Made by a program: the position numbers and the translations under genes. The notes under the pieces are model-generated. The model saw nothing but the letters and a program-made list of their open reading frames with translations, did no database searches and had not been told where the DNA came from. 64,000 nt of DNA from Rhodospirillales bacterium (GTDB taxonomy: Bacteria > Pseudomonadota > Gammaproteobacteria > Nevskiales > Nevskiaceae): the NCBI GenBank assembly GCA_903970615.1, contig CAJCJH010000015.1, positions 1-64,000 on the forward strand, given 5' to 3'. This document shows, in pieces, positions 2,569 through 13,955 of the stretch (the stretch's first letter is position 1; every line of letters starts with the position of its first letter).

Positions 2569-4764
2569 CTACGGACTGGGCTGCGCCGGCGGCGGGCTGG
2601 CTGAAGAATTAGCCGGCTGCTTTTTGCGGCCGAACAAACTGCCCAGGCCCTGCTTCAATTGATTACTCAAATCTGGATTGCTGGCGCCGAGCTTTTTATC
2701 GATCTGATCACTGAGTTTTTGCTGGATTTTTTCGGTGCCCTTCTGCTGCAGCGCCGATTTCACATCGATGCTGTAGCGCGGCTGCGCGAACGTGCCGGTC
2801 ACATGCACCGGAATCACCAGTCCGCTGAGATCAGCCAGCTGCTTGCCGCCTTGTCCGGTCGCGGTGTTGACGATCGTCGGCTTGGCGACGTAATCGATCG
2901 TCTGCGCGGCGATATCCACCTGGCCGGCACCGCCAACGCGGAACAAGGGACTGGCAGCGTTCAGATCATCCGAAGTCAGCACGCCATTCACCACTTTGCC
3001 GGAGGCCGAGAGCGTCGTGAAATCGGTTTCCTGCGGCGCTGAATCATCAAGCTGCGTACCGCTCATGAAAGCTTCGCCCTTGCGGATGATCTGGCCCAGA
3101 TTGAAGCCTTTCACCTTGCCATTCTTGAAGCTGAAGGAAACATTGCCATCGAGCGCGCGCTTGAGTTCGCCAACGGTGCGCCCGGCACCGCTCAGATTCA
3201 CTGCGATATCGCCGACGCCAGTGAGCGAATCCTTGCCATTCAGATCGATTAGCAGCGGCCCGACATTGATCGATGCCAGCTTGAAATTTTCCGCCAGCAG
3301 CGGCTTCGCCGCCGGCGTGATTTGCGTGCTGCTGGTGAGTGTGCCGCCGTAAAGTCTTGAATCCAGATCGATGCGCTTTTCATGGCCTTTGGGCGCGGTG
3401 ATTTTCAAATGCACGTCGCTCATGCTCAGGTTTTGCAGCTTGAATTTGCCGATATCGAGCGTGCCGTTCGCATTGAGTTTTTCCAGCGAATCGACCGGCA
3501 GCACGGTGGCATCCGCAGAGCCGCTGGGCGCGGCCGGACCACCCGCGGCCTTGCGCGCGGCGGGCGTGGCGGCGGCCTGCTGTTGCGGCGGCGGCAAATA
3601 ACGGTCCGCATCCAGCGTGTCGGCCTTCAAGGCGAAATCGAGCGCTTGAGTTGCAAAACTGCTGACGCCGATGCTGCCGCTGAGATGCGATTGATCCAGT
3701 TCGAACACCAGATTGCTGAGCCGCGCCGCACTCGCACTGCCTTCGATCTGCGCGCTGACGCTAGCGTTTTTCAAGGCATTCGGATCGGCGGTTTCAATCG
3801 ACATGCCGAACGTCTTCAACAGCTCGCGCGGATTGAACGGCTTGATGCTGAGCGGCCCGGAAAAATGCCCGGCACTGCCATTCAACCCGCTGCCCTGCAA
3901 GCTTGCGGTGGCGCTCAGGCCACCCGCATCGAGTCGGCCGTTGGCGAGGCTGAGCGTGCCTTTGCTGCCGTCGTAGCTGAGATCGGCATCGAATTCCGCG
4001 GTCTGCGTGCCGTTCGGAATTTGCGCGCCGCTCGCCTTCAATTTCACTTTCAGCTTGTTGGCCTGGTAGGTTTTTGCATTCAGATCGAACGCCAGCTTCG
4101 ATGAAATTTCGGTATCCGCGGTGATCGCCGGCTGCGTCAGCTGGGTGCTGAAGGCAAGATCGAAACTGAAGGCCTTGCCGGGTTCGATCGCGCCGGTTTC
4201 GAGCTTCAGCCTGGACAATTGATAACTCTGATGCGCCTGATCGTCGCGGTAATTGAGCGCCGCATTGTCGATGCTGATTCCGGCGATATCGATCGACTTG
4301 ATATTGGCGCTCGACGAGCCAGCCGCTTCGCCTGGCTTGGCCGAATTCGTCTGGCTGGTTTTCTCGACGAGATCGTCCCAGTTGGTTTTGCCGTCGGCAT
4401 GTCTGGCCAGATTGAGCTGCAGATTATCGACCGTCACCGAACTCACTTGAACTGCGCGTTCGCGGATCAAGGGCAGCAGCTTTACGCCGATTTCCGCCTG
4501 GCCGATGCCGGCAAAATAGGCGCTGCCGAAACCGGCGGCATTGCTCAACGTCACGTTCTGGATGCGCGCACCGAGGGTCGGAAAAATGCTCAGACGGATA
4601 TCGCCGATGATGATGTCGCGGCCGGTCGCATTCTTCACCTGCGCGGCGATCTGTCCGCGGAAATTGTTGGCATCGAAAAACATCGCAAACAACACCACCG
4701 CGAGCACCACCAGCAGCACGATTGCGAGCGCTAGCCCGAGTACGACTTTGACTATTTTTTTCAT
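2569..4764 (-). CDS. AsmA family protein
   Basis: This 731-residue protein has one N-terminal membrane anchor (residues 5-30) followed by AsmA motifs, including GRDIIIGDIRLSIFPTLGARIQNVTLSN. The C-terminal AsmA-like core carries LNGKDSLTGVGDIAVNLSGAGRTVGELKRALDG and NLGQIIRKG. AsmA-like proteins span the periplasm from the inner membrane and belong to the group thought to carry or influence phospholipid transport to the outer membrane. It is the first gene of the minus-strand run asmA, SRPBCC gene, mutY, yggX. The C-terminus is basic and then Pro/Ser-rich. Its start is divergent from rimO. Confidence 0.92.
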   Translation of the reverse strand: MKKIVKVVLGLALAIVLLVVLAVVLFAMFFDANNFRGQIAAQVKNATGRDIIIGDIRLSIFPTLGARIQNVTLSNAAGFGSAYFAGIGQAEIGVKLLPLIRERAVQVSSVTVDNLQLNLARHADGKTNWDDLVEKTSQTNSAKPGEAAGSSSANIKSIDIAGISIDNAALNYRDDQAHQSYQLSRLKLETGAIEPGKAFSFDLAFSTQLTQPAITADTEISSKLAFDLNAKTYQANKLKVKLKASGAQIPNGTQTAEFDADLSYDGSKGTLSLANGRLDAGGLSATASLQGSGLNGSAGHFSGPLSIKPFNPRELLKTFGMSIETADPNALKNASVSAQIEGSASAARLSNLVFELDQSHLSGSIGVSSFATQALDFALKADTLDADRYLPPPQQQAAATPAARKAAGGPAAPSGSADATVLPVDSLEKLNANGTLDIGKFKLQNLSMSDVHLKITAPKGHEKRIDLDSRLYGGTLTSSTQITPAAKPLLAENFKLASINVGPLLIDLNGKDSLTGVGDIAVNLSGAGRTVGELKRALDGNVSFSFKNGKVKGFNLGQIIRKGEAFMSGTQLDDSAPQETDFTTLSASGKVVNGVLTSDDLNAASPLFRVGGAGQVDIAAQTIDYVAKPTIVNTATGQGGKQLADLSGLVIPVHVTGTFAQPRYSIDVKSALQQKGTEKIQQKLSDQIDKKLGASNPDLSNQLKQGLGSLFGRKKQPANSSASPPPAQPSP

Positions 4765-6677: not shown

Positions 6678-7460
6678 GTGTCGTTGATGGCCGATTCCCG
6701 AGGTCTGTTGCCACGTCTGCCCCGATCGGCTTTGCCCGGCTGGCTGGTGGTCTGTGATTTCGACGGCACGATTGCCGATATCGATGTGACTGACGGCATT
6801 CTGAGCCGCTTTGCATTGCCCGAATGGGTGGATATCGAAGTCGAATGGAAGGCCGGCGCCATCGGTTCACGCGAATGCATGCGACGTCAGGTGGATCTGC
6901 TGCGCGTACCGCTCGCCGAGCTCGATGCCTACCTCGATACGGTTGAAATCGATCCGGATTTCGGCGCGTTCGTCGAAGCCTGCCATCTCATGCAACTGCC
7001 GCTGGTCATCATCAGCGACGGCATCGACTATGCCATCCGCCGCATCCTCAAACGGCATGGTCTCGACGATCTGCCGCTGGCAAGCAATCGTCTGGTGCAG
7101 ATCAGCAACAGCACTTACCGCCTCGAATTTCCGGATTCCGATCCCCAATGCCGCGCCGGCAGTGGCACCTGCAAATGCGCGGTCAGTTCCGCTCGCGCTC
7201 ATGGCAGCAAGCGGCTTTTGATCGGCGACGGCAGTTCGGATTTCTGTCTCGCCGGCGCCGCCGATCTGGTATTCGCCAAAACCAAATTGCTGCAGCATTG
7301 CCGCGAGGGATCGCTGCCGCATCACGCCTGCCCGGATTTCGCAACGGCGCGTCAATTGCTTAGAGAACTCGATGTTCCCGCGCGATCCCCGATCGCCGTC
7401 AAGCGGACCTGGAAAGCCGCTCTTCCGCCGGTGCCACCGGCCGCTGCCCTGGAGATTTAG
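6678..7460 (+). CDS. HAD-IB phosphatase, MtnX-like
   Basis: This HAD-superfamily phosphatase of about 260 residues carries motif I VVCDFDGTIADIDVTDG (nucleophile Asp27), motif II VIISDGIDY, and a late GDGSSDFCLAGAADLVFAKTKL that supplies the metal-binding acidic residues. The pattern is that of the MtnX/phosphoserine-phosphatase branch. MtnX acts in methionine salvage, but no other salvage gene lies nearby, so the substrate is probably different. The frame opens with GTG (6678), TTG (6684) and ATG (6687), and the ATG may be the real start. It is the first gene of a compact operon: the aminotransferase starts 2 bases after its stop. A Cys-rich stretch (QCRAGSGTCKCAVSS) is unusual. Confidence 0.8.
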   Translation: MSLMADSRGLLPRLPRSALPGWLVVCDFDGTIADIDVTDGILSRFALPEWVDIEVEWKAGAIGSRECMRRQVDLLRVPLAELDAYLDTVEIDPDFGAFVEACHLMQLPLVIISDGIDYAIRRILKRHGLDDLPLASNRLVQISNSTYRLEFPDSDPQCRAGSGTCKCAVSSARAHGSKRLLIGDGSSDFCLAGAADLVFAKTKLLQHCREGSLPHHACPDFATARQLLRELDVPARSPIAVKRTWKAALPPVPPAAALEI

Positions 7461-7462
7461 TT

Positions 7463-8863
7463 TTGACGCAAATGAACAAAGCCGGCCTCACCCGGGAAGC
7501 TGAATTGCTGCGCGACGAATCCAACTACTGCTCGTTCGGCGATACGGTTCATTATCTGAATCCGCCGAAATTCTTTGAACGCTGCGACGGCTCCTATCTG
7601 TTTGACAAGGACGGCACGCCTTATCTCGATCTACAAATGTGGTACTCGGCGGTGAATTTCGGTTACGCCAACCCGCGCTTGAACGATGTGCTGAAACGCC
7701 AGATCGACGTGCTGCCGCAGGTGGCGAGTCAATATCTGCACCCGACCAAGGTCGAACTGGCGAAGGTCATCGCGCAGGATGCCGAGAAGAAGTTCGGCCA
7801 CAAGGGTCGCATTCATTTCAACGTCGGCGGCTCGCAGTCGATCGAAGATTCGCTGAAAGTCGTGCGCAACGCCAGCCACGGTAAAAGCCTGATGTTCGCG
7901 TTCGAAGGCGGCTATCACGGCCGCACGCTGGGCGCTTCGGCGATCACTTCAAGCTATCGCTATCGGCGCCGCTATGGCCACTTCGGTGATCGCGCGCAGT
8001 TCATCGAATTCCCGTATCACTTCCGCGGGCCGAAGGGCATGAGCAAGGAAGAATATGGCGAAATGTGCGTGGCCAAGTTCGAGCGCCTGTTTGAAACCGA
8101 ATACAACGGCGTCTGGGATCCGAAGACCAACCAGTGCGAATACGCGGCGTTTTACGTCGAACCAATCCAGGGCACCGGCGGCTACGTGATCCCGCCGATG
8201 AACTTTTTCAAGGGCATCAAGCGCGTGCTCGACAAACACGGCATCCTGCTGGTGGTCGACGAAATCCAGATGGGTTTTTATCGCACCGGCAAGCTCTGGT
8301 CGATTGAGCATTTCGGCGTGCAGCCCGATGTGCTGGTATTCGGTAAGGCGCTGACCAACGGCCTTAATCCGCTGGCCGGCATCTGGGCGCGCGAGGAGCT
8401 CATCAACCCAACGATTTTCCCGCCCGGCTCTACGCATTCCACGTTCGCCTCGAATCCGCTGGGCACCGCCGTCGGCCTCGAAACGATGAAGATGCTGGCC
8501 GAAGGCGACTACGAAACTTCAGTCGCCGAAAAAGGCGCTTACTTCCTGGAAGGTCTGAAAAATCTGCAAAAGCAGTTCAAGCAGATCGGCGATGTCGATG
8601 GCTTGGGCCTCGCGCTGCGTGCCGAAATCTGCACCGGCGACGGCTTTACGCCGGACAAGGCCACGCTCGATAAAGTGGTCGACGAAGGCATGAAGGGCGA
8701 TCTCGTCGTCAACGGCAAGAAGCTCGGCTTGGTGCTCGATGTTGGCGGCTATTACAAAAACGTGATTACGTTTGCGCCGTCGCTGCATATCACCAAGCAG
8801 GAAATTGATCTCGGTCTGGAATTGCTGGCGCAGGCGCTGCATCGCGTCGTTGGCAAGCATTAA
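7463..8863 (+). CDS. PLP-dependent class III aminotransferase
   Basis: This 466-residue fold-type I aminotransferase belongs to the class III (ornithine/4-aminobutyrate transaminase) family. Visible motifs are FEGGYHGRTLGA, EPIQGTGGY, the PLP-binding Asp266 in VVDEIQMGF and the Schiff-base Lys295 in LVFGKALTNG. The TTG at 7463 is preferred because a GGAG lies 8 bases upstream; the next ATG (7472) would be too far from it. It is packed between the phosphatase (2-base gap) and the hydrolase (3-base gap). The amino acceptor is unknown. The partners suggest an aldehyde or keto intermediate of a lipid or amino-alcohol rather than arginine metabolism, which is inference. Confidence 0.88.
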   Translation: MTQMNKAGLTREAELLRDESNYCSFGDTVHYLNPPKFFERCDGSYLFDKDGTPYLDLQMWYSAVNFGYANPRLNDVLKRQIDVLPQVASQYLHPTKVELAKVIAQDAEKKFGHKGRIHFNVGGSQSIEDSLKVVRNASHGKSLMFAFEGGYHGRTLGASAITSSYRYRRRYGHFGDRAQFIEFPYHFRGPKGMSKEEYGEMCVAKFERLFETEYNGVWDPKTNQCEYAAFYVEPIQGTGGYVIPPMNFFKGIKRVLDKHGILLVVDEIQMGFYRTGKLWSIEHFGVQPDVLVFGKALTNGLNPLAGIWAREELINPTIFPPGSTHSTFASNPLGTAVGLETMKMLAEGDYETSVAEKGAYFLEGLKNLQKQFKQIGDVDGLGLALRAEICTGDGFTPDKATLDKVVDEGMKGDLVVNGKKLGLVLDVGGYYKNVITFAPSLHITKQEIDLGLELLAQALHRVVGKH

Positions 8864-8866
8864 GGC

Positions 8867-9739
8867 ATGGTCGCCGGCCGGCAGCCTGTCTGCAACGATG
8901 TCAAGGATCACAGCTTCTTTCTCGAAGGTGGCGATGTCGGCGTTCTGCTGATCCACGGCCTCACCGGCACGCCGGTGGAAATGCGCTATGTCGGCAAGGG
9001 TCTGCACAAGGCCGGCTTCACCGTTTATGGCGTGCAGCTGCCGGGGCATTGCGGCAGCGAAGCCGATCTCGCCGCCACCGGCTGGAAGGATTGGTATGCC
9101 GGCGTGGAACAAGCGCTGGCCGCGCTGCAAACGCGCGTCAAAACTGTGGTCGTCGGCGGTCTCTCGATGGGCGCGGTGATGTCGCTGCATCTGGCCGCAA
9201 AACACGGTGCAGAAATCAGCGGCCTGCTGCTCTACGGAACCACCCTCTGGTACGACGGCTGGACGATTCCGTGGTACAGCATTCTGTGGAAGCCGCTGAT
9301 CAATACGCCGCTGGGCCGCAATTACACGTTCATGGAAAAGTACCCTTACGGCATCAAGGACGAGCGCCTGCGCCGGCGCGTGGTGCAGAACATGTTATCC
9401 GGCAACAGCGCCGACGCTGGACTCGCCGGCATGCCGGCTTGCGGCGTGCGCGAGTTGTGGAAGCTGGTCGCCGAAGTCAAGAAAGAACTGCCTTCGATCT
9501 ACGCGCCCGCCCTGATTCTGCACGCGCGCGAAGACGACATGAGCAGCGTGCGCAACGCCTATTATGTGGCGCGGAATCTCGGCGGCCCGGCTGACGTAAG
9601 CCTGCTCGACGATTGCTATCACATGATTACCGTCGACCGGCAGCGCGACGAAGTGGTGGCGCGCAGCGTCGAATTCCTGCGGCGCATCGCGGCACAAACA
9701 GCGCCGCACAGCGGCCTGCGGGTCGCCGCGGTTTCCTGA
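8867..9739 (+). CDS. Alpha/beta hydrolase (carboxylesterase-like)
   Basis: This 290-residue soluble alpha/beta hydrolase has the oxyanion-hole motif LLIHGLTGTP, the nucleophile elbow GGLSMG (Ser100), a probable acid in LILHAREDD and a His in DDCYHMITVD. The fold and spacing resemble bacterial carboxylesterases and monoacylglycerol lipases. There is no signal peptide. It starts 3 bases after the aminotransferase stop and 22 bases before the methyltransferase, so it is the third gene of the operon. It could release or hydrolyse an acyl intermediate of this pathway. Confidence 0.82.
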   Translation: MVAGRQPVCNDVKDHSFFLEGGDVGVLLIHGLTGTPVEMRYVGKGLHKAGFTVYGVQLPGHCGSEADLAATGWKDWYAGVEQALAALQTRVKTVVVGGLSMGAVMSLHLAAKHGAEISGLLLYGTTLWYDGWTIPWYSILWKPLINTPLGRNYTFMEKYPYGIKDERLRRRVVQNMLSGNSADAGLAGMPACGVRELWKLVAEVKKELPSIYAPALILHAREDDMSSVRNAYYVARNLGGPADVSLLDDCYHMITVDRQRDEVVARSVEFLRRIAAQTAPHSGLRVAAVS

Positions 9740-9761
9740 AGGTTTTGAGAAGGTTCGGCGA

Positions 9762-11054
9762 GTGAACGACGGCGCGACGATCAGCCCGGGCAAACTGCGG
9801 CGGCGCTCGCTGGTGGATTGGGTGCTGAGCAAAGGCCTCGGCGATCTGATCAAATTCGGCCATCTCGAAGTCATCACCCCATCCGGCAACCGCTTGAATT
9901 TCGGCGACGGTGGCGGCGCGCCGGTAGTGGTTCGCTTCACCGACTCCGCCGCGCAATGGGCATTCCTGTTCGATCCGGAACTGCGCCTCGGCGAGATCTT
10001 TACCGACAGCCGACTGTTGATGGAACAAGGCAGCATCTACGATTTCCTGATCCTGGTACTGAGCAACATCCAGGCTTCGCCGAAGGAAAAACCGAATATC
10101 TTTGCGCGTATCGCAGCCCAAATACGCTTCGCCACGCGACGCCAGCGCCAGCGCAATACCTCGACTCGCGCGAAGCGCAATGTCGCGCGCCACTACGACC
10201 TCGGCGACGAACTTTATGCCTTGTTCCTGGATGCCGACTGGCAATATTCCTGCGCCTATTTCGAATCGCCGGATTTGACGCTGGAGCAGGCGCAACTGGC
10301 GAAGAAACGCCACATCGCCGCCAAGCTGATGGTCGATCGCGGCCATTCGGTGCTTGATATCGGCTGCGGCTGGGGCGGCTTGGCGTTGTATATGGCCGAG
10401 AGCGCGGAGGCGGGCGCCGTCACCGGCATCACTTTGTCCGAGGAACAACTCGCCCGCGCGCAACAACGCGCGGCGCAACGCGGCCTCGCTGATCGCGTGC
10501 AATTCCAGCTGCAGGATTATCGCAGTCTCAACGGCCAGTTCGATCGCATCGTCTCGGTCGGCATGTTCGAGCATGTCGGCCTTTCGTTCTACGACACCTA
10601 CTTTCAAAACTGCTTCCGCCTGCTGAAGCCGGACGGCGTGATGCTGCTGCACACGATCGGCTGCACCGGCGTGCCGACCCAAGCCAATCCCTGGCTCGAC
10701 CGTTACATTTTTCCCGGCGGCTACCTGCCGACCTTGTCCGAAATGATGCCGGCGATCGAACGCGCAGGTTTGGTCTTGAACGACATCGAAGTCTGGCGCC
10801 TGCATTACGCGCAGACCTTGCGAATCTGGCGCGAGCGCTTCATGGCGCGGCGCGGCGATGCCGAAAAACTCTACGACGATCGCTTCTGCCGCATGTGGGA
10901 ATTTTATCTGGCGTTCTGCGAAGCCGCGTTCCGGCACGAGGATGTCGTTGTGTTCCAGCTGCAACTTACCCGCCGCAACGATACCGTGCCGCTCAGCCGT
11001 GACTACATCGCGCAACGAGAAGCGCAATTGCGTCAGCGAGAACCTTCGGTCTGA
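9762..11054 (+). CDS. Cyclopropane-fatty-acyl-phospholipid synthase family methyltransferase
   Basis: This 430-residue SAM-dependent methyltransferase has the CFA-synthase layout. An N-terminal region of about 130 residues (an SCP2-like lipid-binding part with RFTDSAAQWAFLFDPELRLGE) is followed by NVARHYDLGDELYALFLD. The SAM site is VLDIGCGWGG (198-206), then SVGMFEHVG and HTIGCTGVP. The family adds a methylene or methyl group across acyl-chain double bonds of phospholipids; the group also contains enzymes with other lipid products. The GTG start at 9762 has GAGAAGG 8 bases upstream. It is the last gene of the operon, so its substrate may be the product of the preceding three genes rather than bulk membrane lipid. 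Confidence 0.88.
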   Translation: MNDGATISPGKLRRRSLVDWVLSKGLGDLIKFGHLEVITPSGNRLNFGDGGGAPVVVRFTDSAAQWAFLFDPELRLGEIFTDSRLLMEQGSIYDFLILVLSNIQASPKEKPNIFARIAAQIRFATRRQRQRNTSTRAKRNVARHYDLGDELYALFLDADWQYSCAYFESPDLTLEQAQLAKKRHIAAKLMVDRGHSVLDIGCGWGGLALYMAESAEAGAVTGITLSEEQLARAQQRAAQRGLADRVQFQLQDYRSLNGQFDRIVSVGMFEHVGLSFYDTYFQNCFRLLKPDGVMLLHTIGCTGVPTQANPWLDRYIFPGGYLPTLSEMMPAIERAGLVLNDIEVWRLHYAQTLRIWRERFMARRGDAEKLYDDRFCRMWEFYLAFCEAAFRHEDVVVFQLQLTRRNDTVPLSRDYIAQREAQLRQREPSV

Positions 11055-12299: not shown

Positions 12300-13955
12300 T
12301 CAGTGCAGGCCAAAAGAATGGCGATTCAGAATGTGCAGTGGATCGCGTAGGCGCTTCGCCGCAGTCAAGCGGTTACGGATTTCGGCCGGCGCACGCTGCT
12401 GAAATTCCTGCGCCCACTTGGAGCCGACGCCATGTTCGGCGCTGAAGGTGCCGCCGAATTTTTCGGTGACATCGAACACGCAAGCCGTTAACGCCGCCGC
12501 ATGACTGGCAACCGGTTGTTCCTTCGTGCCGAGCAAATGCAGGTGCGCACCACCAACGCCGGCATGACCGAATGCGACGAATTCCAGCTGCGGCCATTGC
12601 GCCAGCAGCTCGCGTTGCAGCGCCGAGAGATAGTCTCCAAACACATGCACCGGCGCAGCCGTATCGAAGGCGAGCCGGCCGCCGCCGAGTTTGCGCATCC
12701 GCGCATTGCTGGATTCGGTGATCGAATGCCGCAGCTTCTTCAAAACCGGCAGCGGCGCATAGCCAATCTGCTGCGCCGGCCACTGCAAGGTTTCGCTGAC
12801 GAACTCATAAAGCTGGCTGGCGAGATCATCGCCATCGGCTGCATCGTGTTCCGCGCTGCGCTGCGATTTGATTTGCAGCAGCACGAAATAAGGCGAGGCC
12901 AAAGGCTCACCCTCGAACGGCCAGCGGAATGCAGCGCCCTGATGTTCGCGCACCAGCTCGATCGCCGGCCAGCCGATAAATTCGAACTCCTCGACATCGC
13001 CCGGAAAACGCTCGCGCGCGGCTTCGAATATTTTCATCGCCGCCGGCATGTCCGCCACCGGCAACAGCACCGCCTCGCGCTGCACTGGAACCGGATACGT
13101 GCGCAGCTGCACGCGCGTGATCACGCCAAGCACGCCTTGGCTGCCGACCAGTCCCCAAGCCGGCTGCACGCTGGCGGAATCGATCGCCAAAGTTTCCGGA
13201 TCGGGCCGATCCCAAGGCGGCGCAGCGCAGGGTCCAGCGGCAGCGCCGTTACCCCAGAAACCCCATGCCGCCGTGCATAAACGTGCCGCCGTGCCATAGC
13301 ACACTGCATTGGCGCCGGCCGATCCATTGGCGACGCAGGCACCGACACTTGCCGCGCTCGATGAGCCCATTTCCATTGGCCAGACCAGACCGATTGGCGC
13401 CAGCAGATCGTTGAGGACATCGACCGCCATGCCCGCTTCGACCGTGATGGTGGCACCCGCGAGTGCGGCGCTTTTATCGAGCTGTGATTCAGGCTGGCCG
13501 AGCCACCAGTTCAACAGTTGATCGCGGTGTTGATTGGCGTCGCCCGGGCGATCGAACTGCAAAGCACGACCATCCGCCAGTGTAAACTTCAACGGCTGCG
13601 TCAGCCGCTCCAGCGAAAGCACCACCTCGCCCTGCGGCCTTTGTGCTTCAACCAGACCGGTGCGCCCGGCGCTGATCACCAGCGGCTGCTGTAATTCGTT
13701 GCAGGCACGCAGCATGTCGCCCACTTCGGCTTCGCATTCCGGCACCAGCAGCGCCAGCGCCTTGCCGGGCGTTCCGCGCTCCGGAATTTCGTAGCGCTGC
13801 AATTTTTCCGGCGCATCGAAAAAGTGTTCGCGGAAAAGCTGACTCAGAGTGCTTGCGCTCAAAACGGTTTGCTCGTGATGTTGGGTTGCAGCGATCGCAA
13901 CGAATTTGCTGAAGGATTTTAAGCCACATCCAGCGTGGCGTTGGGGGCGACTCAA
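12300..13955 (-). CDS. FAD-binding oxidoreductase (glycolate oxidase/D-lactate dehydrogenase type)
   Basis: The protein has the FAD-binding PCMH fold: LALLVPECEAEVGDMLRACNELQQPLVISAGRTGL, then GSSSAASVGACVANGSAGANAVCYG and WGLVGSQGVLGVITRVQLRTYP. A C-terminal FAD-oxidase cap ends with FVAFGHAGVGGAHLHLLG and GTFSAEHGVGSKW. This matches the glycolate oxidase subunit D/D-lactate dehydrogenase family, which oxidises 2-hydroxy acids with electrons going to the respiratory chain. The substrate is not evident. The frame can begin with TTG at 13955, but family-like sequence begins near a TTG at 13862 (LSASTLSQLF), so the true protein is probably about 520 residues. It stands alone. Confidence 0.82.
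   Translation of the reverse strand: MSRPQRHAGCGLKSFSKFVAIAATQHHEQTVLSASTLSQLFREHFFDAPEKLQRYEIPERGTPGKALALLVPECEAEVGDMLRACNELQQPLVISAGRTGLVEAQRPQGEVVLSLERLTQPLKFTLADGRALQFDRPGDANQHRDQLLNWWLGQPESQLDKSAALAGATITVEAGMAVDVLNDLLAPIGLVWPMEMGSSSAASVGACVANGSAGANAVCYGTAARLCTAAWGFWGNGAAAGPCAAPPWDRPDPETLAIDSASVQPAWGLVGSQGVLGVITRVQLRTYPVPVQREAVLLPVADMPAAMKIFEAARERFPGDVEEFEFIGWPAIELVREHQGAAFRWPFEGEPLASPYFVLLQIKSQRSAEHDAADGDDLASQLYEFVSETLQWPAQQIGYAPLPVLKKLRHSITESSNARMRKLGGGRLAFDTAAPVHVFGDYLSALQRELLAQWPQLEFVAFGHAGVGGAHLHLLGTKEQPVASHAAALTACVFDVTEKFGGTFSAEHGVGSKWAQEFQQRAPAEIRNRLTAAKRLRDPLHILNRHSFGLH

Follow-up and report, generated by a model that had tools for sequence, protein, structure and literature searches.

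The window, a 64,000-nucleotide stretch of contig CAJCJH010000015.1 (assembly GCA_903970615.1, Nevskiaceae), carries a compact operon of four genes, which encode a HAD-type phosphatase (HAD), a class-III aminotransferase (AT), an alpha/beta hydrolase (ABH) and a cyclopropane fatty acid (CFA) synthase. All four lie on the + strand and their open reading frames (ORFs) are separated by 2, 3 and 22 bp, as the initial annotation had stated; each product exceeds the cut-off of its Pfam family (HAD, Aminotran_3, Hydrolase_4/Abhydrolase and CMAS, respectively):

6678..7460, + strand: HAD-IB phosphatase of the MtnX/phosphoserine-phosphatase superfamily (Pfam PF12710, E=2.6e-8)
7463..8863, + strand: class-III pyridoxal phosphate (PLP) aminotransferase (PF00202, E=2.5e-78)
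8867..9739, + strand: alpha/beta hydrolase of the monoacylglycerol-lipase/carboxylesterase type (PF12146, E=1.7e-20)
9762..11054, + strand: cyclopropane fatty acid synthase, the lineage-specific fourth gene (NF053839; PF02353, E=4.4e-96)

The translational starts of HAD (GTG 6678 or ATG 6687) and AT (TTG 7463 or ATG 7472) are ambiguous, and a consensus scan for a sigma-70 promoter or a terminator at the operon gave nothing convincing.

Predicted properties of the four enzymes

The affiliation of AT to the class-III fold family is based on the PF00202 match and on the Schiff-base lysine K295, which is invariant in 89 orthologs. The same alignment reveals a strong overall conservation, about 200 of 466 columns (~43%) being at least 97% identical. 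T436 is found in 89/89 orthologs at a position where paralogs sharing R154 keep an arginine, which we take to be the substrate-carboxylate binder of γ-aminobutyrate (GABA) and ornithine transaminases (GabT R398). None of the NCBIfam models reaches its cut-off with AT. As the scores are far too low for Orn_aminotrans (186.7 vs 378 bits), argD (212.6 vs 410) and GABAtrnsam (205.5 vs 507) and the conserved substrate arginine is replaced, an ornithine, acetylornithine or GABA transaminase label is unsupported; the initial annotation had warned against the first of these. The orthologs further share an invariant SxRYRRR-GHF segment with the invariant residues R166, R168, R170 and R177 downstream of the GYHGRT motif, and this arginine-rich segment could bind a phosphate or phosphopantetheine arm. 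Judged by its sequence, AT is a member of an uncharacterised, very conserved class-III subfamily. The AlphaFold2 model has a mean pLDDT of 68, with values below 50 in the active site.

In HAD, the catalytic motifs DFDGT, SDG, K and GDGxSD are intact; the residues D27, D29, S113, K166, D184 and D188 are invariant among 12 diverse orthologs, as is a C-x-K-C segment in the HAD orthologs. The protein falls into the MtnX-like HAD-IB subfamily TIGR01489 (83.9 bits, cut-off 81.55) and misses both curated MtnX equivalog cut-offs by ca. 200 bits (94.2 vs 292 for PRK09552 and 84.4 vs 303.2 for TIGR03333), so that an assignment as MtnX is rejected, again as foreseen in the initial annotation. Antisense run-on ORFs or uvrA account for an apparent HAD fusion in locus L140 and for large ORFs next to AT in L131 and L136.

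ABH contains the complete triad of Ser (GLSMG), Asp and His, with the motifs GLSMG, HAREDD and CYHM. It corresponds to the monoacylglycerol-lipase type, with PDB matches to 7e0n and 5xks, the best one being a thermostable monoacylglycerol lipase (E=1.7e-33). Ser, Asp and His are retained in most loci, but L142 and eight Caulobacter/Rhizobium-type loci have a cysteine nucleophile (GICVG). Such a nucleophile would be better suited to acyl transfer or thioester chemistry than to plain lipolysis.

The fourth gene scores 626.1 bits against the CFA synthase equivalog NF053839 (cut-off 600 bits). The earlier designation as a CFA-like methyltransferase was thus correct at the family level and can be sharpened: by this score the protein is a genuine cyclopropane fatty acid synthase, and cyclopropane production is predicted.

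A conserved triad with variable partners

Orthologs of AT, mostly 68–97% identical, are sharply separated from its paralogs; among the first 61 relatives nine genomes carry a sequence of at least 75% identity and all else lies at or below 37%. One scan of named genomes yielded 55 further loci (71–96% identity) distributed over Lysobacter, Pigmentiphaga, Caulobacter, Hyphomicrobium, Solimonas, Oxalobacter and Uliginosibacterium as well as deltaproteobacterial metagenome-assembled genomes (MAGs), and AT is also present in plasmid records of Rhizobium, Agrobacterium, Sinorhizobium, Phyllobacterium, Bartonella and Xanthomonas. When Pseudomonadota were sampled evenly, 26 of 398 genomes (~6.5%) had it; in one of the 26 the gene is a 55% paralog that lacks a HAD partner.

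The neighbourhood of AT was surveyed in 85 loci, many of them cut by contig ends, by counting genes within about 10 kb; genes were called by a codon-score method, antisense ORFs being abundant in high-GC DNA. HAD was found in 72 and ABH in 64 of these loci. HAD seemed absent from seven loci of Pigmentiphaga and its close relatives; the four such genomes checked have it ca. 13 kb away within the cluster, and the other genomes checked contain it as well. Wherever contigs permit a check, HAD lies within about 15 kb of AT, with the exception of one divergent AT paralog. HAD, AT and ABH are a conserved triad in genomes of Gamma-, Beta-, Alpha- and Deltaproteobacteria and not chance neighbours.

Further genes recur around the triad, namely those for a FemAB-like protein (PF04339, 46 of the 85 loci), an arginase-fold protein (PF00491, 41), a pair of small multidrug resistance (SMR) proteins (38 and 34), a DevC-type permease (32), an acyl carrier protein (ACP, 23), a β-ketoacyl synthase (KAS, 22) and a DegT aminotransferase (17), together with NtrC-type or OmpR-type two-component systems and DevBCA/TolC-type exporters. 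KAS, with its active-site cysteine, and ACP directly abut HAD in the deep-branching locus L144, where dense short imperfect repeats occupy positions 2985–3900 (G149) between HAD and AT. A fatty-acid desaturase joins the cluster in Rhizobium and Sinorhizobium, and the gene order in Rhizobium NZLR1, beginning with response regulator (RR) and histidine kinase (HK), is RR-HK-HAD-AT-arginase-EamA-desaturase-ABH-FemAB-EamA-CFA-MipA. Full-size clusters of Rhizobium, Agrobacterium and Sinorhizobium (L121, L123, L124) reside on large plasmids adjacent to a two-component system and MipA/OmpV, two of them with the desaturase inside the operon. In Pigmentiphaga and relatives (L044, L048–L052, L054) two cyanophycin-synthetase-like genes immediately follow the AT-FemAB-arginase genes. 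The arginase-fold subfamily (alignment A2) is characterized by invariant GSGD-x-HH, DNHPD, HCGSW, DKD and TNWDQG motifs; the metal-ligand pattern is kept, but the subfamily resembles none of the curated ureohydrolases. In a gene table published for a genomic island of Serratia, the series OEP-ABC-MFP-HAD-ABH-DMT-DMT-(unnamed gene)-FemAB-AT appears with eptC nearby, not treated as a system (PMC9964261); by its position, the unnamed gene is presumably that of the arginase-fold protein.

The relation of CFA synthase to the triad was analysed in 58 Nevskiaceae genomes, seven of which contain the triad, an ortholog being defined by at least 60% identity. It is present in six of the seven triad genomes versus 3 of the 51 others (Fisher p=1.4e-5), and a DevC-type exporter in 9/9 genomes with the CFA ortholog versus 2/49 without it (p=5e-9), the significance of both being overstated because related genomes are treated as independent. 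Five of the six CFA-linked triad genomes hold a second CFA gene of 47–51% identity elsewhere, so the triad-linked copy is an additional one; in the window's own genome the operon gene is the sole CFA synthase match. In Hyphomicrobium, Caulobacter OR37, Rhizobium and one deeper lineage, too, a CFA gene of this subfamily lies no more than about 10 kb from AT. CFA synthase stands outside the widespread core and is a lineage-specific recruit. The earlier proposal that the four genes work together is therefore supported by the conserved triad and by the tracking of CFA synthase with triad and exporter; additional genes do join, and the four-gene unit is a reduced form of a larger system.

This reduction concerns the putative head-group genes and the exporter. 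The FemAB-like and arginase-fold genes were sought elsewhere in the window's genome, where they might have been kept, and were found neither there nor in its triad-bearing relatives, the searches giving only weak general-family matches. A DevC-type permease gene (G000:C42:22481-23608, 498 bits) lies on another contig of the window's genome, accompanied by genes for an ATPase, an adaptor and a TolC-like protein; in G003, G007 and G035 it is linked to the triad. We conclude that the version in the window is reduced and that its exporter is encoded in trans. Five loci of triad-negative Nevskiaceae (L205, L232–L235) combine a conserved DevBCA/TolC exporter with a thioester-reductase-like short-chain dehydrogenase/reductase (SDR), one or two cupin_8 proteins and a protein of ~430 aa; a CFA synthase is nearby in 3/5, and the ensemble looks like another uncharacterised lipid export module. 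The class-III aminotransferase near CFA and exporter in triad-negative genomes was identified as BioA.

The four-gene block of the window is flanked by rimO and a Mem_trans gene, and two sister genomes (G017, G006) contain HAD-AT-ABH-CFA contiguously at the identical site; the closest named relatives are Nevskia and Sinobacteraceae MAGs. Because 5/6 triad-negative relatives examined keep Mem_trans adjoining a FAD-oxidase gene without the triad, an adjacency shared by the window, the block appears to have been inserted next to this pair. The oxidase (12300-13955, - strand), which adjoins Mem_trans in most relatives, is a FAD-linked enzyme of the GlcD/D-2-hydroxyglutarate type scoring under all curated cut-offs.

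A putative pathway and its alternatives

With moderate confidence we interpret HAD-AT-ABH as the core of a dedicated lipid pathway directed to the envelope, to which the operon adds a recruited cyclopropane synthase. The product is probably an exported amine-bearing lipid made or modified by these genes, since the triad is kept together and often joined by fatty-acid-modifying and lipid-exporter genes; its substrate, step order and product class are proposed as follows. AT might aminate a keto or aldehyde precursor, either phosphate-bearing or held on phosphopantetheine and gripped by the arginine-rich segment. HAD would then strip the phosphate in a SerC/SerB manner to give a free amino-alcohol or long-chain amine, and the Ser/Cys nucleophile of ABH might move or release an acyl group by ester, thioester or amide chemistry, thereby joining or trimming the acyl part. 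Subsequently, the chain would be tailored by CFA synthase, or elsewhere by the desaturase or KAS and ACP, and a DevBCA/MacAB-type ABC exporter with a TolC-like channel, encoded on the other contig here, would take the lipid to the outer membrane. In the larger versions, the FemAB-like N-acyltransferase, the arginase-fold hydrolase, DegT and the SMR pair may add head-group steps and flipping.

The lipid character is suggested by the repeated recruitment of CFA synthase, desaturase and KAS/ACP, the resemblance of the exporter to DevBCA and the cysteine nucleophile of some hydrolases. The lipid theme of the initial annotation has thus gained independent arguments, its aminolipid product still having the status of a proposal. 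More tentatively, and with somewhat greater doubt than belief, we consider a new class of amine-bearing outer-membrane lipid formed by a widespread proteobacterial pathway, which would combine a class-III aminotransferase without the canonical substrate arginine, a phosphatase, a Ser/Cys acyl-transferring hydrolase, interchangeable chain tailoring (cyclopropanation, desaturation or KAS/ACP) and a DevBCA-type exporter. An exported amino lipid, if true, would constitute a new class of envelope lipids and might provide a way to tolerate cationic antimicrobials.

Several observations, besides the overstated co-occurrence significance, weigh against this lipid pathway. Most cluster versions lack CFA synthase, as does one Nevskiaceae triad genome (Solimonas-type G463), which likewise lacks the exporter. 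In three triad-negative Nevskiaceae CFA lies 5–10 kb from the exporter, with genes for a thioester-reductase-like SDR and a cupin_8 protein close by, and may therefore belong to an exporter module rather than to the triad. Given the missing FemAB-like and arginase-fold partners, the window version may make only part of a larger product. Finally, export does not prove a lipid, because this exporter class also carries drugs and peptides.

The strongest competitor, which we rate as rather unlikely, is a diffusible natural product, an amine or amide derived from a fatty acid and acting as antibiotic, signal or metal ligand. It would be secreted by the MacAB/DevBCA-TolC system, and CFA synthase would tailor its tail or be incidental. 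The KAS and ACP pair, the tripartite exporter, the patchy distribution and the plasmid carriage are in line with it, and the FemAB-like N-acyltransferase and DegT aminotransferase resemble a biosynthetic cluster. However, KAS and ACP are missing from many versions, the SMR/ArnE-ArnF-like pairs, MipA and EptC neighbours indicate the envelope, and AT is conserved far beyond the other genes and rimO, an unusual feature in an enzyme of secondary metabolism; the identity of window and G017 is 96% for AT, 88% for rimO and 80–83% for the other operon genes.

The same envelope neighbours would suit the amine modification of an existing polymer such as lipid A, lipopolysaccharide core or peptidoglycan, conferring resistance to cationic antimicrobials or disinfectants. 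The SMR pairs are ArnE/ArnF-like, MipA/OmpV adjoins the Rhizobiaceae versions with two-component regulators alongside, and the matching gene set next to eptC stems from a disinfectant-resistant Serratia (PMC9964261). We consider this scenario improbable, as glycosyltransferases, nucleotide-sugar enzymes and undecaprenyl-linked enzymes are not among the recurrent members of the cluster, a FemAB-like gene is missing from the window version, and CFA synthase, desaturase and KAS/ACP would be left unexplained. A chance assembly of housekeeping genes (methionine-salvage phosphatase, general transaminase, esterase and the cell's CFA synthase) accords with the single CFA match in the window's genome but is largely refuted, and hardly credible, in view of the AT-HAD linkage persisting across classes, the MtnX scores of HAD and the second CFA gene in five of the six CFA-linked Nevskiaceae genomes.

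Comparison with known systems

In the open literature (subscription journals lay outside the scope) no description of this gene combination as a system was found. The cluster therefore appears to be without a published description, although its kind, an envelope-lipid or lipid-like biosynthesis-and-export cluster, is familiar; its chemistry is putative. The conserved gene set occurs in ~6.5% of sampled Pseudomonadota species, with plasmid-borne copies in Rhizobium, Agrobacterium, Bartonella and Xanthomonas, and misleading annotations such as MtnX, ornithine transaminase and multidrug efflux are attached to its members.

The components can be compared with known families. HAD shares fold, catalytic motifs and the Cys-rich C-x-K-C segment with MtnX/SerB-type HAD-IB phosphatases, but scores far under the mtnX cut-offs and is here always partnered with AT. 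AT has the PLP fold, the lysine and 30–35% identity in common with class-III transaminases and racemases (GABA and ornithine transaminases, archaeal alanine/serine racemase), from which it differs by Thr436 in place of the substrate arginine, the SxRYRRR-GHF segment and its extreme column conservation. The CFA synthase exceeds the curated cut-off of the Brucella-type NF053839 enzymes and contains the catalytic Cys, Glu, His and Tyr; distinctive is a dedicated Nevskiaceae copy that follows triad and exporter, 5/6 genomes having a more distant paralog as well. The exporter, with adaptor and TolC-type channel, is best compared with DevBCA-TolC(HgdD), which exports glycolipids in Anabaena (PMC6161253). 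Permease and ATPase match DevC (101 bits, cut-off 290) and DevA (209 bits, cut-off 296) best among NCBIfam models, both below the equivalog cut-offs, and the system is encoded in trans in the window's genome.

The Caulobacter ceramide cluster (spt, acpR, aasR, cerR, cerS/bCerS) encodes a PLP enzyme, a dedicated ACP and an N-acyltransferase, and its product reaches the outer membrane (PMC11324152, PMC11087976). In the present cluster the PLP enzyme belongs to Aminotran_3 (class III) instead of the α-oxoamine synthases; no oxoamine synthase is found among the recurrent neighbours, which speaks against a serine palmitoyltransferase route, a genome-wide spt search not having been made. Moreover, the recurrent genes include neither an acyl-ACP synthetase nor a CerR-type reductase, those for HAD, ABH and SMR come in addition, and the window version is without an acyltransferase. 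Despite these differences, the ceramide pathway is the nearest functional analogy, as genes for a PLP enzyme, an ACP and an N-acyltransferase share one envelope-lipid cluster.

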